A stretch of 39,667 nucleotides of DNA from Candidatus Omnitrophota bacterium (GTDB taxonomy: Bacteria; Omnitrophota; Gorgyraeia; Duberdicusellales; 4484-171). The stretch is from positions 1 through 39,667 of the forward strand of contig JAIPHC010000003.1 of NCBI GenBank assembly GCA_021735405.1, in the 5' to 3' direction. This document shows positions 10,449 through 27,221 of this stretch, one piece after another. Every line of letters starts with the position of its first letter. The first letter of the stretch is position 1. Made by a program: the position numbers and the translations under genes. The notes beneath the pieces are model-generated. The model was not told the origin of the DNA, did not search any database, and saw only the letters and a program-made list of their open reading frames with translations.

Positions 10449-11006
10449 ATGAACACAGATAGCATACCAAAAACCAGTTTTTACAGATGCACACAGATTT
10501 TTAAAGGTAAAGGTCTGTTATCATTTTTTATTTTGACGCTAAGCTTTTTATTTTCTTTAACTGTTTACGCCGAAGCCCAAACTATAACTTTAAAATCTTT
10601 AATAAATAACCCGGGAAAATACGACGGGAAGATGGTTTCTTTTGAGGCGGAAGCGATTGGGGACCCGCTTGGCGGCAGAAAAGGAATATGGTTTAATGTC
10701 CAGTCAGGAAAATATAATATGGGAATTTTTGTAAAAAACAAGGATCTTATCAATCAAATCAGCCATTGGGGCAGTTATAAAGAAAGAGGAGATTTGATTA
10801 AGAGTGAAGGTATTTTTTATAAAAATTGCTCTGTTCACGGCGGCAGGGATTTGCATTTGGTTAGCCTTGAAATTGTAGAAAAAGGCGGAATAAGGGATCT
10901 TAAAGCAGCAGAGGGAAAAAAAAGGTTTGCTTTATTTAGTTTTGTAATTTTCTTGACATTAGGATGTATTTATCTTATAAAAATAAGATTATGGCAGCAG
11001 AAATAA
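10449..11006 (+). CDS. signal-peptide / C-terminal TM protein, probable OB-fold-like domain, unknown function
   Basis: Signal-like LLSFFILTLSFLFSLTVYAEA, then TITLKSLINNPGKYDGKMVSFEAEAIGDP, C-terminal TM helix. Confidence 0.6.
   Translation: MNTDSIPKTSFYRCTQIFKGKGLLSFFILTLSFLFSLTVYAEAQTITLKSLINNPGKYDGKMVSFEAEAIGDPLGGRKGIWFNVQSGKYNMGIFVKNKDLINQISHWGSYKERGDLIKSEGIFYKNCSVHGGRDLHLVSLEIVEKGGIRDLKAAEGKKRFALFSFVIFLTLGCIYLIKIRLWQQK
10953..10981 (+). promoter_or_regulatory. near-consensus sigma70-type promoter upstream of pheS
   Basis: TTGACA - 17 nt - TATAAA; expected TSS about 10988, pheS ATG at 10991. Confidence 0.6.
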
Positions 11007-12037
11007 AAACGATAAAAAGTAATTTTCAAAAAGATTTAGAGAACGCAGAAAGCAGAGAGTCTCTAAAGAAATTAAAGATAAAATATTTGGGGAGAAAATC
11101 TAAAATCTCTGAGCTTTTTTCTAATATTCCGAATTTACCCAAGCAAGAAAGAGGCTACTGGGGTAAAGAGTTGAATATTTTAAAGAATCAAATAAGTTCG
11201 GTTATCGAAGCAAGGCTGGCCGGAAAAAGCCAGAAGGAAGAAAAAATTGATCTAACCTATCCGGCCAGGCTGCCGGATCAAGGCTCTAACCATATTTTGA
11301 GCTCGGTTACAAACGATATTTGTTTGATATTTAAAGAGCTGGGTTTTAATATAATTTCCGGAAATGAAGTAGAAGATGAATGGCATAATTTTTCTGCTTT
11401 GAACATCCCTTTGGAACATCCTTCCCGTGATGCGTTTGATACTTTTTACCTGGATTTACCTGAAAAAAACCAAAAAAGCGGAAGCTGGCTGTTACGCAGC
11501 CATACTTCTCCTTCTCAAATTCGAATGATGCAAAAATTAAACCCCCCTTTAGCTGTAGTTTCTCCGGGCCGGGTCTACCGTCCTGATGTGGTGGATGCGA
11601 CTCATTCTTTTATGTTTTACCAAATAGAAGGTTTTGCGGTTGGGGAGAACTTAAGTTTTGCCGATTTAAAAGGGACTCTTCTTTATTTTGCCAAGCAATT
11701 TTTTTCTCAAGAAGTCCAGCTTCGTTTCCGGCCTCATTTCTTTCCCTTTACCGAACCTTCGGCGGAGGTGGATGTATCTTGTGTTATCTGCGCAGGCAGC
11801 CAGGCAGAAGGCGGAGGCAGATGCAGTGTATGTAAGGGTAAAGGTTGGCTTGAAATATTAGGATGCGGGATGATCCATCCCAACGTGCTTGAAGCTTGCG
11901 GGATAGACAGTAAAAAATACCAGGGTTTTGCTTTTGGAATGGGAGTAGATAGAATTGTTATGCAGAAATATCAGATAAACGATATTAGGCTTTTTTATGA
12001 AAATGATCTAAATTTTTTAAAACAATTCCCGATTTAA
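10991..12037 (+). CDS. pheS: phenylalanyl-tRNA synthetase alpha subunit
   Basis: RSHTSPSQIRMM, GRVYRPDVVDATHSFMFYQIEG, GFAFGMGVDRIVM; Cys4 cluster CVICAG...CSVCKGKGW. Confidence 0.95.
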   Translation: MAAEIKTIKSNFQKDLENAESRESLKKLKIKYLGRKSKISELFSNIPNLPKQERGYWGKELNILKNQISSVIEARLAGKSQKEEKIDLTYPARLPDQGSNHILSSVTNDICLIFKELGFNIISGNEVEDEWHNFSALNIPLEHPSRDAFDTFYLDLPEKNQKSGSWLLRSHTSPSQIRMMQKLNPPLAVVSPGRVYRPDVVDATHSFMFYQIEGFAVGENLSFADLKGTLLYFAKQFFSQEVQLRFRPHFFPFTEPSAEVDVSCVICAGSQAEGGGRCSVCKGKGWLEILGCGMIHPNVLEACGIDSKKYQGFAFGMGVDRIVMQKYQINDIRLFYENDLNFLKQFPI

Positions 12038-12041
12038 AAAT

Positions 12042-14045
12042 ATGAAATTTAGTTTAAATTTTTTAAAACAATTTGTCGAAATTAAAGTGTCAGCCAAAGA
12101 ATTGGCCGATAAGTTTACTTCGGCCGGTTTAGAAATCGAAAATTTAAAGAAAATATCAGAAGACTGGGTTTTTGATGCCGAAGTCACCACCAACAGGTAT
12201 GATTGGCTTTCTATTCTCGGGATTGCGCAGGAAGCAGCTGCTGTATTGGGTAAGAATATAAAAATAAATTATCCTAAAATAAAAATTAAACCCGGCCTCA
12301 CGGAAATAAGTATTTCAGCAGAAGATAAAAAAGACTGCCCTTATTATTTAGCCAGGGTAATAGAGGGCATTAAGGTGGCGCCTTCTCCGGATTGGTTAAA
12401 AAAGCTGGTTGTAAATTGCGGTATGGCTTCGGTAAATAATATTGTTGATATTACAAATTATTGTATGCTTAAATGGGGAAACCCCCTTCATGCTTTCGAT
12501 AAAGATAAAATTGAAGGGGATATTTGTATAAGGAGAGCAAAAGATAAAGAAGAGTTTGTAGGTATAGATCAAAAGAGGCGGGTTTTAAGCAAAGAAAATT
12601 TAATTATTGCCGATAGCAAAAAAACTATTGCATTAGCCGGAGTAATCGGCGCTAAGAATACAGAAGTAACTTCTTCAACTGAAAATATATTTTTAGAAGC
12701 GGCTAAATTTTCTCCGATTACCGTAAGGCGTTCACGCAGGCATCTAGGCCTTGATACCGAATCTTCTTACCGGTTCGAAAGAAGAGTGTCTGAGTTTTTT
12801 CTAGATTATGCGTCGCAAGAGGCGGCTGATTTGATTGAAGAATTAGCAAAAGGAAAATTTTCCGGATTTAAAAAGATAGGCAAAAAGACGGAAAAACAGC
12901 CAAAGGATATCACAATAGGATTGGCAAAAATGAAAAACTACCTGGGAACGGATTTTAAAATAAATAAAGTTAAGAAAATTTTAAAAACCCTTAATTTTAA
13001 AATTCAAAAATCAACAACAGATAAAATAAAAGTAAAACCAGCTTTATCCCGGTTTGATATCGAGAAAGAAGTTGATGTTTATGAAGAATTTGCAAGAATT
13101 TACGGTTATGGCCGGATTAAAGCAAAAATACCTTTTTTAAAAAAATCCCAAAAAGATTTTTCTCTTTTAGGCAGGGAGGAAAAATTTTGGGAATTTAAAA
13201 ATAAAATAAGGAGTTTTGTTTCTCTTTCCGGTTTTTCTGAAATTATCACCTATAGCATCGAAAGCAAAGAAGAACTTTCTTTATTTACAGAAGAGAGCGG
13301 ATTAGAACTAAAAAATCCTTTACGCCGGCAGGAAGACAGCCTAAGGCCGGTTTTATCTTTAGGGATGATAAAAGTTGTAAAACATAATTTAAACCGGGGC
13401 AAGTCTAACCTTAATATTTTTGAAATTGCAGATGTTTATCAAAAGAATAAAAACAGCCTTAAAGAAAAACCATTTTTATCTTTAGGTATAAGCGGAGAAA
13501 AAACAAGATTTTTTTTGTTAAAGGGGCAAGTTTTAGCAATTCTAAATTATTTGAATATAAAATCCGTTCAGTTTAAAGAATCCAAAAAGAAAAGTTTCAG
13601 CAATGCTTTGGAAGTTGTTGTCAAAGGCGAAGTTGTTGGTTTTTTGGGTAAAATTAATAAAAAAGAAAAAGAGAAATTTGGGCTAAAAGAAGATTTATTT
13701 ATATCCGAACTTGACTTAAGATTATTAGAAAAATATAAAAGGGATAAAAAATTTAAACCTTTTTCTAGATTTCCGGCTGTTTGGCGGGATATAAGTTTAG
13801 CCATAGAGGAAAAGATAAAGTTTAAAGAGGTTAGGAGAATAATAGAAAAAGAAGGGCAGTATTTAGCGGATTTAGCGGTTATTGATAGTTATCAGAGCCA
13901 AGAATTACCGCCAGGTTATTTTGCTTTTACTTTAAGAATTTTTTACCAGTCAAAACAGAAGACATTAAATTCTAACGAAGTGGATAGTTACCATAATAAT
14001 ATTAGAAAAAAATTGGATAAAAAAACAGGTATAATTTTAAGATAA
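12042..14045 (+). CDS. pheT: phenylalanyl-tRNA synthetase beta subunit, short form
   Basis: MKFSLNFLKQFVEI...; VNNIVDITNYCMLKWGNPLHAFD; C-terminal anticodon-binding fold; goes directly from GLEIENLKK to DAEVTTNRYDWLSILGIAQE. Confidence 0.93.
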   Translation: MKFSLNFLKQFVEIKVSAKELADKFTSAGLEIENLKKISEDWVFDAEVTTNRYDWLSILGIAQEAAAVLGKNIKINYPKIKIKPGLTEISISAEDKKDCPYYLARVIEGIKVAPSPDWLKKLVVNCGMASVNNIVDITNYCMLKWGNPLHAFDKDKIEGDICIRRAKDKEEFVGIDQKRRVLSKENLIIADSKKTIALAGVIGAKNTEVTSSTENIFLEAAKFSPITVRRSRRHLGLDTESSYRFERRVSEFFLDYASQEAADLIEELAKGKFSGFKKIGKKTEKQPKDITIGLAKMKNYLGTDFKINKVKKILKTLNFKIQKSTTDKIKVKPALSRFDIEKEVDVYEEFARIYGYGRIKAKIPFLKKSQKDFSLLGREEKFWEFKNKIRSFVSLSGFSEIITYSIESKEELSLFTEESGLELKNPLRRQEDSLRPVLSLGMIKVVKHNLNRGKSNLNIFEIADVYQKNKNSLKEKPFLSLGISGEKTRFFLLKGQVLAILNYLNIKSVQFKESKKKSFSNALEVVVKGEVVGFLGKINKKEKEKFGLKEDLFISELDLRLLEKYKRDKKFKPFSRFPAVWRDISLAIEEKIKFKEVRRIIEKEGQYLADLAVIDSYQSQELPPGYFAFTLRIFYQSKQKTLNSNEVDSYHNNIRKKLDKKTGIILR

Positions 14046-14065
14046 TTTTTATAAATGTTCTTTAC

Positions 14066-14094
14066 TTGAAAAGAAAAAATAAGCCTGTTATAAT
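14066..14094 (+). promoter_or_regulatory. sigma70-type promoter for the ncRNA
   Basis: TTGAAA - 17 nt - TATAAT, expected start about 14101. Confidence 0.65.
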
Positions 14095-14101
14095 TATAAT
14101 T

Positions 14102-14250
14102 ACCCTGCCTGTTGCGTTGGAGGTGTAAGCGCTACAGCCAACATCAGTCGTAAGGGAGCCAAATTTCTTAAACAAAAGTTTAGGATGCGGTGCCCACTTG
14201 TGTGAGAAGAGGACTGATAGCGTCGGCCTCGAACGGACTTATGGCGGGGT
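14102..14250 (+). ncRNA. structured non-coding RNA, possible 6S RNA (ssrS-like)
   Basis: No ORF; own promoter; ends close as ACCCTGCC (14102-14109) / GGCGGGGT (14243-14250); internal helices GTTGG/CCAAC, TGTA/TACA, ATCAGTC (14143-14149)/GACTGAT (14212-14218). Confidence 0.6.
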
Positions 14251-14266
14251 TTAAATTTATAAAAAA

Positions 14267-15238
14267 ATGATTAAACAACTATCTAATCCAAAATTAAAAC
14301 AACCAGTATTTATAGCCGCCTGGCCGGGCATGGGCGAAGTTGCTTACCGGAGCGCTTTGTTTTTAAAAGAAGCGATGAATTTCAAAGTATTCGCAAAGCT
14401 TGATATGGAAGATTTTTTTAAACCGGCCGCGGTGATAGTCGAAGATGGAATAACCGCAATCCCTAAACCGCCCACGGGTTTATTTTATTATTATAAAGGT
14501 AAGGAAGGACCGGATATAGTTCTTTTTTTGGGCCAGGCTCAGCCTCCTTTGGAACACGCAGAAGAGCTTTCTTTGACTGTAATTAAATTTATTAAAAAAT
14601 ATAAACCACGGTTAGTGGTTACTTTTGCCGCAAAACCGGAATCTGTTGACCATAAGCATAATTCTTCTCTCTGGCTGGCAGCTACCCATCCATCTGTTGC
14701 CAAAAAATTTGAAAAAACTGAAATTAAAATATTAAAAAAAGGCCAAATTAGCGGATTAAACGGTATTATTTTAGGCATGGCTAAACGTAAAGGGCTTAAG
14801 GGCGCTTGTCTTTTAGCCGAGATTCCCTTTTATACTGCACAAATCGAAAACCCTAAAGCTACGGCAGTTATCTTAGACTTGCTTGTTCATTTTTTCCGGA
14901 TAAAACTTGATATTTCTTCTATTTGGAAAAGGGCAAAATTTATCGAAAAAGAAATAGATAAACTTATTAGTTACCTAAAAGGAGATGCCAAACCGGAAGG
15001 CCCCACTCCTTTAAGCGAAGAAGATGTCAGAAGGATTAAAAAAGATTTAGCAGCTTATACCAAGGTGCCTCAATCGGTGAGAAATAATATCGAAAAACTT
15101 TTTAAAAAGGCAAAACGCGATATAGCCGCTGCTAGTGAATTGAAAAAAGAGCTTGATGATTGGAATGTCTATAAAGAATACGAAGACAGGTTTCTTGATC
15201 TTTTTCGCAACAAAGGCAATGATAAGGGAACTCATTAA
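14267..15238 (+). CDS. PAC2 family protein (proteasome-assembly-chaperone-like)
   Basis: WPGMGEVAYRSALFL, PPTGLFYY, GLNGIILGMAKRKGLKGACLLAEIPFY. Confidence 0.82.
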   Translation: MIKQLSNPKLKQPVFIAAWPGMGEVAYRSALFLKEAMNFKVFAKLDMEDFFKPAAVIVEDGITAIPKPPTGLFYYYKGKEGPDIVLFLGQAQPPLEHAEELSLTVIKFIKKYKPRLVVTFAAKPESVDHKHNSSLWLAATHPSVAKKFEKTEIKILKKGQISGLNGIILGMAKRKGLKGACLLAEIPFYTAQIENPKATAVILDLLVHFFRIKLDISSIWKRAKFIEKEIDKLISYLKGDAKPEGPTPLSEEDVRRIKKDLAAYTKVPQSVRNNIEKLFKKAKRDIAAASELKKELDDWNVYKEYEDRFLDLFRNKGNDKGTH

Positions 15239-24648: not shown

Positions 24649-24811
24649 GTCATTGCGAGCGCAATGAGCACCTGCCTGCTGGCAGATAGGAAGCGACGAA
24701 GTAATCTCTCTATAGCGTCATCCTGAGCCCCCTTCGACTTCGCTCAGGGCAGGCTCCGGGCGAAGGATCTCATTCATCATAGAGATTCTTCGGTTTCGCC
24801 TCAGAATGACA
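24649..24811. repeat. composite nested palindromic repeat between convergent genes
   Basis: GTCATTGCGAGC..AAGCGACGAAGTAATCTC and GTCATCCTGAGC..CGAAGGATCTC..GAGATTCTTCGGTTTCGCCTCAGAATGACA units, with inner palindromes. Confidence 0.8.
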
Positions 24812-24836
24812 TTGAGGTTATTTCGGGCTTTGCCTT

Positions 24837-27221
24837 CTAACAGGGCTTACTTTTTTTAAATTTTAATAAAGTATGGATATACCAGCTGGCTGAGCCGGTA
24901 AGGTAGGAATAAAGGCCTTGCCCTTGGCTATTAAAATATTCAGGCAGTTGAGGATAAGTTGTGTTTGAACCAGATTTAGCCATTCCATAAAGAGAGTTAA
25001 TAACAGAATCTCCCTCTTTTCTAAAACCTCGTTTGTAAAGGGCATAAGAAAACATAATAATCATATGGCTAAAAAAAGCGCCATTTTCTTTATCCCCGTA
25101 GCTAAAGCCGAAAGCTCTTCCCAGCTCGGGATAGACAGAACCAAAATTTGTATTAAGCCGAAAGCTTTTGTTTTTATCTTTTAAATATTTATTGGCCGAC
25201 TGCCAGATTTTTTTAATTTGATCTCTGGTAGCTACTCCGCTCATTATTGCAAATACTTGCGGAGCAAGCATCATTTGTACCTTTGCTTTGTTTTTCCCGG
25301 CGCATTTTTTCCCGGCATTATCATAGTAGCCGTTAAAAAAACCTTTATTCAACCATTCTTTCTCCAGGAGCCAGCCGCTAAGATGTTTATATTTTTTTTC
25401 CAAATCAAAGATGACAGCGTCTACATTTACTTTGACTTTTTTACCAGAAATTTGTATTGTGCTTTCCAGATATTTTTTTAGTTGTTTTTGTTTTTCCCGG
25501 AAACTATTATAGTTAATCGGTTTATCTAAACTATCTAAAAGAAGTGTCAGCTCTTTTAGGATTTCGATCTTATTTTTTTTTCTTTTCAGTGTTTTCATCA
25601 GTTTAGTAATACCTTTTAAGTTATGAGCGTACATAAAGCTGAAAGTTACCGTTTCTCCGTAATTACTTGCCATATCTAAGGCGTCGTTCCAATCAGCGCT
25701 TTCTAATTTTATAATATTGTGGGAGCCGACGTTAAAAAATGATGTTAAGTTTTGGATAAGCAGATGTTCCAAGAGGCTACCTTTATAAATTTTGTTTTTA
25801 GTTGTACGTAAAATGAAATCTTTTTGATTGAAGCCATAATCAATTCTAGTTGATCGCATCAAGTGGGAATCTCGAAAATAAGGCAGTTGTTGGCTTAATA
25901 TATTTATATTTTTGCTTTGTTCTAAATAAGAATTTAAAGTCAAATAAGGCCAGATTCCATGGTCAGACCAAACCCGGCTTATTTTATTGCGGTCAGATAA
26001 AAAACTATTATCTTTTTTTATTATAGTAGCGTTTGAGCCGTCTAGGCGTATGCCGGAAAAAGAATTTATTATTAATTTTTTCGCTTCTTTTGGTTCATAA
26101 TGCAATAAAACTAAGGCATCCTGCCAAAGGTCCCGCCAGCCTCTGCCTCCTTTTCCATAGTCAAAATGGGGCAGAAACGAGCAGCCGAAAAGTTTACGCA
26201 AAGCAGGCTGTGCTTTCACCCACCTTAACCAGTTGTTATAATTTTTGTCTTTAAAATTAAATTCTATTTTTCCAAAAGCAGTCTGCCAATATTTTTTGGT
26301 TGCAATAAGTTCTTTTTTTACCTTTTTGTTAGTATCAATTTTAGAAAACAAATCAGTTATTTTATTGCGGCATGCTTTTTTTGCCCCCGATGCCAAGCCC
26401 AAGCCTATAATATAACTTGTTTGTTTTTCTTTTTTTAGTAATTTGCTGCCAAAATCGAAAGCAGCTATTATTTCTTTACCGTCAAAACTGTCTCTCTTTT
26501 TTTTGGCTGATTTTTTATTTTTATAAACCGCATCGGGTTTTAAGAGGCCTCCTTTTCCGCAGAAGTAATCTAAAACAGGGAATTGGCCTTTAATCTCAGA
26601 GCCTTTCCCCTTGGCTAGACAGAAATAGGTGGTTTTACCTAAGCTGTGGCCTTCTTCATTAAATAAAAGAGCCGGCCGGAGCAAGATGCCGTTTTTTGTT
26701 AAATCGATTCTATTTAAAAGGCTGCTTACGTGCCGATGGTCCCGCAGGGTCGTTTCGCTTCTCCCGTAAAGAGGTATAGCTGAATAGGCAGTTATGTTTA
26801 GATTTTTCTTTGATTTATTTTTTACCTTAATTTGCATAACTTCGATGTCAAGGTTGTAAGGGATAAAGTTTAATATTTCTACATCAACTAATTTTGTATA
26901 TTTGGTAATCTTATGATAGAAAAAACCAGCCTGGAGTTTATCGGGATAGGGGTCTGACAGCCGGATAATTTTTTCTTTTGTTGGGCTAACTTTAATTTTT
27001 ATAAAAAAATCCCTGCGAACTAAAGGATTATACTTTATATCTATCGCAGTTGCCGGCGGGGTAAGAAAGTAGTCTTTGTCTTTTTTGATGTCCCCGGCTA
27101 AATTGGGGCTAATTGAAGAAAGTAGACTTCCTGATTTATTTGTTAAGGGAAAGTAGTTGTTGTAGCGATGGGAATTTTCTACTACAAACTCTTCTCTGTT
27201 GCCGGTAAATTTATATATCAT
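24837..27221 (-). CDS. GH94-like (glycoside phosphorylase superfamily) protein
   Basis: GKGGRGWRDLWQDALVLL, ESADWNDALDMA, YPQLPEYFNSQGQGLYSYLTGSASWYIHTLL. Confidence 0.75.
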   Translation of the reverse strand: MIYKFTGNREEFVVENSHRYNNYFPLTNKSGSLLSSISPNLAGDIKKDKDYFLTPPATAIDIKYNPLVRRDFFIKIKVSPTKEKIIRLSDPYPDKLQAGFFYHKITKYTKLVDVEILNFIPYNLDIEVMQIKVKNKSKKNLNITAYSAIPLYGRSETTLRDHRHVSSLLNRIDLTKNGILLRPALLFNEEGHSLGKTTYFCLAKGKGSEIKGQFPVLDYFCGKGGLLKPDAVYKNKKSAKKKRDSFDGKEIIAAFDFGSKLLKKEKQTSYIIGLGLASGAKKACRNKITDLFSKIDTNKKVKKELIATKKYWQTAFGKIEFNFKDKNYNNWLRWVKAQPALRKLFGCSFLPHFDYGKGGRGWRDLWQDALVLLHYEPKEAKKLIINSFSGIRLDGSNATIIKKDNSFLSDRNKISRVWSDHGIWPYLTLNSYLEQSKNINILSQQLPYFRDSHLMRSTRIDYGFNQKDFILRTTKNKIYKGSLLEHLLIQNLTSFFNVGSHNIIKLESADWNDALDMASNYGETVTFSFMYAHNLKGITKLMKTLKRKKNKIEILKELTLLLDSLDKPINYNSFREKQKQLKKYLESTIQISGKKVKVNVDAVIFDLEKKYKHLSGWLLEKEWLNKGFFNGYYDNAGKKCAGKNKAKVQMMLAPQVFAIMSGVATRDQIKKIWQSANKYLKDKNKSFRLNTNFGSVYPELGRAFGFSYGDKENGAFFSHMIIMFSYALYKRGFRKEGDSVINSLYGMAKSGSNTTYPQLPEYFNSQGQGLYSYLTGSASWYIHTLLKFKKSKPC

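Follow-up and report, generated by a model that had tools for sequence, protein, structure and literature searches.

6S RNA forms a complex with the housekeeping RNA polymerase holoenzyme, and the complex comes apart when a short product RNA is transcribed from the 6S bubble (PMC8876501, PMC12005410). Conservation of GG at product-RNA positions 4 and 5 is reported to extend beyond lactic acid bacteria. In the 6S RNAs of B. subtilis and A. aeolicus, a central bubble collapse helix joins the 3' strand of the P2 stem and the distal 5' strand of the bubble. In lactic acid bacteria, 6S RNA is known to have the gene rarA as a neighbor (PMC8414754), and in B. subtilis rarA is found close to 6S-1. No mention of 6S RNA together with Omnitrophota was found in the literature searched.

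The DNA analyzed here, referred to as the window, is a stretch of 39,667 nucleotides from a Candidatus Omnitrophota bacterium. The first-pass annotation of the window had proposed a structured RNA, encoded by a stand-alone gene with a strong promoter of its own, that looked like 6S RNA in size and end-closing but might be new. The best explanation, which we hold with near certainty for the proposal as a whole, is that the locus is the 6S RNA (ssrS) gene of this bacterium. The genes and signals considered are as follows.

12042 to 14045, + strand: pheT (TIGR00472, 572.6 bits), the conserved upstream neighbor
14066 to 14094, + strand: sigma-70 promoter with an extended -10 (TG), from its consensus match and its counterparts in 28 of 30 homologues
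14099 to 14254, + strand: 6S RNA (ssrS) gene (RF00013, 42.7 bits; own covariance model R1, 152.4 bits)
14267 to 15238, + strand: gene for a PAC2-domain protein (TIGR00162/TIGR00161, below their cut-offs), starting 16 bases past the closing stem of the RNA

Identity of the RNA

The sole match in a scan of positions 14050-14290 against 4227 Rfam families, at an E-value threshold of 10, was RF00013 (6S/SsrS RNA). The match spans 14099-14254 (+) and positions 1-187 of the 187 in the model, with E = 1.1e-7 and a score of 42.7 bits, which is 3.7 bits below the RF00013 gathering score of 46.4. A scan with cmscan against RF00013 had been proposed as a check on the family; it gave a full-length match and no other family, although the score stayed under the cut-off. 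The window copy falls short because its apical arm is shorter than that of the Rfam model (156 bases versus 187 model positions) and its sequence has drifted. At gathering scores, Rfam returned two tRNAs and nothing else in the whole window. A fast whole-genome search of the same genome with RF00013 did not find the window copy, which represents a loss in the first look because the direct scan and our own model both recover it. The same fast search did recover a copy with 97% identity in a relative.

The relatives remove the doubt that a score under the cut-off leaves, because some pass the cut-off and others are matched by our own model. The RNA was present in 27 of 58 relatives in a DNA search. 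RF00013 matched in 20 of 37 family genomes, 5 of them with scores over the gathering score (best, 56.6 bits), and in 191 of 285 phylum genomes, 175 of them over it (up to 111.7 bits). The RNA is therefore common in the phylum, and the window's branch is a diverged part of the phylum's 6S RNA. A covariance model (R1) built from 30 homologues found one copy in the window's genome and matched in 33 of the 37 family genomes. The 30 model sequences match R1 by construction, and thus the gain from this model is the genomes outside those 30. R1 gave no match in the other four family genomes (G011, G019, G021, and G030), which may reflect assembly gaps or further drift.

Like 6S RNA, the window RNA aligns over the whole RF00013 model, with a closing stem, P2 stem, central bubble, and apical arm, and it has its own sigma-70 promoter and a predicted purine-first product RNA with GG at positions 4 and 5. 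Judged by homology, this is a genuine, diverged 6S RNA, a known kind of RNA rather than a new one. The description of a 6S-like RNA gene is supported by the RF00013 match, the relatives, covariation, and our own model, and the conserved promoter suggests that the gene may be transcribed on its own. The suggestion that the RNA might be new is not supported.

The promoter TTGAAA-17-TATAAT, identified in the first-pass annotation, matches the sigma-70 consensus at 11 of 12 positions and has TG before the -10 element. By itself such a site is not beyond chance (1 found versus 1.5 expected). However, 28 of the 30 homologues carry, in the corresponding stretch, a site that agrees with TTGAAA/TATAAT at 10 or more of the 12 positions, compared with 6.5% of shuffles, and nearly all of these promoters have the 17-base spacer and the TG. 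These comparisons indicate that the promoter of the 6S RNA gene is conserved among homologues. The transcript is predicted to run from about 14101 to 14252.

Conserved fold

The strand folds with an energy of -62.1 kcal/mol, compared with -43.8 +/- 4.15 kcal/mol for shuffles (z = -4.41). The elements of the fold are listed below; percentages of paired cells are from an alignment of 30 homologues.

14102 to 14109, + strand: closing stem, 5' strand, pairing with 14243-14250 (97.1% of cells paired, three pairs changed on both sides)
14130 to 14139, + strand: P2 stem by the central bubble, 5' strand, pairing with 14211-14222 (90.9% of cells paired, six pairs changed on both sides)
14140 to 14153, + strand: central bubble, 5' strand (template side), from the RF00013 alignment
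14154 to 14195, + strand: apical arm GGG-A-GCC...GGT-G-CCC with terminal hairpin (inner helix with 99.4% of cells paired, three pairs changed on both sides)
14196 to 14210, + strand: central bubble, 3' strand, unpaired in the RF00013 consensus
14211 to 14222, + strand: P2 stem, 3' strand, from covariation
14243 to 14250, + strand: closing stem, 3' strand, followed by a T run in most relatives and here (14251-14267) merely by TTTAAATTT
14143 to 14218, + strand: possible central bubble collapse helix ATCAGTC/GACTGAT, from a fold with the template blocked and expected only after product-RNA synthesis

In the alignment, 89.0% of the cells of the 6S fold were paired, and 25 pairs had changed on both sides, compared with 11.8 +/- 1.8 in shuffles; none of 500 shuffles reached 25. 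The covariation score was 0.248 versus 0.168 +/- 0.008 for shuffles. When partners were slid by one to three columns, paired cells dropped to 35-49%, a control that leans towards the 6S fold, which was itself drawn up from the RF00013 alignment together with the predicted fold of the window copy. The shuffle control is free of that lean and ignores relatedness among the homologues. With this strong covariation support, the conserved fold is assigned as the canonical 6S rod with a central bubble, closing stem, and apical arm. The end-to-end closing helix noted at first reading is exact, with ACCCTGCC pairing with GGCGGGGT, one of the pairs being T-G.

The two inner helices proposed at the same time fared differently. 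The complementary sequences are there, both for the 5' hairpin (14116-14120/14138-14142 plus 14124-14127/14133-14136) and for the 7-bp helix of ATCAGTC (14143-14149) with GACTGAT (14212-14218). However, neither is part of the minimum-energy fold, and among the 30 homologues 57.3% of their cells were paired compared with 57.4% for shuffled columns, with no excess covariation. The two helices were therefore rejected as conserved ground-state structure.

Predicted action on RNA polymerase

The predicted product RNA, GUUGGCUGUAGCG, starts opposite C14142 and runs towards 14130, a start placed by the RF00013 alignment and known start sites (PMC8414754, PMC8876501). Its first bases, GUUGGCUG, begin with GUU, like the product RNA of B. 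subtilis 6S-1 (GUUCGGUCAAAACUA, PMC12005410). As in known product RNAs, the first base is a purine and GG stands at positions 4 and 5, the latter shared by 21 of 30 homologues. A pyrimidine occupies the inferred template position in 27 of 30 homologues and A in the remaining 3, and so the start may shift by one base.

In the proposed mechanism, the sigma-70 promoter of the gene would yield a roughly 150-nt RNA whose fold, a long rod interrupted by a central bubble, mimics an open promoter; the fold is assigned by homology and covariation and the action from the family. As growth slows, the RNA is predicted to bind the housekeeping RNA polymerase holoenzyme. When nucleotides are back, the enzyme would use the 5' bubble strand as template, from C14142, for the short product RNA GUUGGCUGUAGCG. 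This synthesis would open the P2 stem, and the RNA would refold, here perhaps by pairing ATCAGTC with GACTGAT, and release the enzyme. The genome encodes an RpoD homologue as housekeeping sigma factor. A second sigma-70 family protein is present as a 272-amino-acid open frame (G000:C34:6575-7276) with 270 bits to RpoD_Cterm, under the cut-off.

Because ATCAGTC/GACTGAT sits where the collapse helix forms in B. subtilis and A. aeolicus, it may be the released form here. When the product-RNA template strand (14125-14142) was blocked in folding, and only then, ATCAGTC was predicted to pair with GACTGAT, which resembles the Bacillus type in joining the distal 5' bubble strand to the 3' strand of P2. 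Unlike the Bacillus type, the helix is strong only in the window and its nearest relative, and blocked folds contained at least four such pairs in 4 of 30 homologues. Neither duplex energies compared with shuffles nor the blocked folds of the 30 homologues revealed a collapse helix kept across the Omnitrophota family. This refolding step is proposed for the present species and is not a feature of the family.

Gene neighborhood

The RNA lies in a 221-base gap between pheST (pheS, 10964-12037; pheT, 12042-14045) and the PAC2-domain gene, all on the same strand. Across the phylum, the gene order pheT-6S-rarA is common. pheT adjoins the RNA in 21 of 30 family loci (some loci are truncated at contig ends) and in 25 of the 30 phylum loci sampled; rarA is the downstream gene at 20 of the 30 family loci, and a RarA match was obtained at 26 of the 30 phylum loci. 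Omnitrophota at large thus resemble lactic acid bacteria in having rarA next to 6S RNA, but in lactic acid bacteria rarA is upstream and uspA downstream (PMC8414754), whereas in Omnitrophota pheT is upstream and rarA downstream. In the window's genus, rarA is absent from the 6S locus; it is on another contig in 2 of 5 genomes, and none was seen in the 3 others, which are drafts. With rarA off the locus, the PAC2-domain gene comes next after 6S. PAC2 is 3' of rarA in several family genomes and directly behind the 6S RNA in the window and three other family genomes. Close named relatives of the PAC2-domain protein are from Candidatus Omnitrophota metagenome-assembled genomes. PAC2 as conserved 6S context was rejected, and the link to PAC2 drawn in the first-pass annotation is incidental; the conserved neighbors are pheT upstream and rarA downstream.

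This context also bears on two other explanations. The RNA could belong to a new structured family other than 6S that precedes PAC2 genes and perhaps regulates them in cis, in keeping with an RF00013 score just below the cut-off and with the short distance, 16 bases, from the closing stem to the PAC2 start codon in this genome. We regard this as highly improbable: the 6S match is full length and homologues exceed the cut-off, the 6S fold has covariation support, the RNA has its own promoter, and the next gene in most family genomes is rarA, not PAC2. For the family as a whole, the homologues over the cut-off, the covariation, and the rarA context refute a new non-6S family. We give practically no credence to the RNA being a leader or attenuator for the gene that follows, or the 3' end of the pheST transcript, as its position on the same strand between pheT and PAC2, at spacings of about 55 and 16 bases, might suggest. 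A conserved promoter lies inside the pheT-6S gap, the downstream gene varies between genomes while the RNA stays, and the RNA matches 6S in RF00013.

In the window the T run after the closing stem is weak; the RNA may thus terminate poorly, and transcription may continue into PAC2. It is conceivable, if rather doubtful, that the 6S RNA and PAC2 genes form one transcription unit in this genus, with PAC2 output following 6S promoter activity; the 16-base gap, the weak T run, and the absence of rarA from the locus are the reasons for considering this. In E. coli, ygfA follows ssrS, and the proposed 6S-PAC2 unit would resemble this ssrS-ygfA arrangement.

Divergent 6S branch and additional copies

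In much of one Omnitrophota family, 6S RNA escapes the standard Rfam cut-off; these findings add this divergent branch, together with a gene order, pheT-6S-rarA, by which such copies can be found. The current view of how 6S RNA works is left unchanged.

With model R1, two 6S RNA copies were observed in seven family genomes (G015, G027, G017, G026, G028, G031, and G034). Tandem 6S genes have been reported in the Bacillus cereus group (PMC7726162), and the paired copies in two of these genomes, G015 (C29:79854-80009 and 80389-80516) and G027 (C57:24213-24369 and 24801-24957), resemble them, lying on the same strand a few hundred bases apart.
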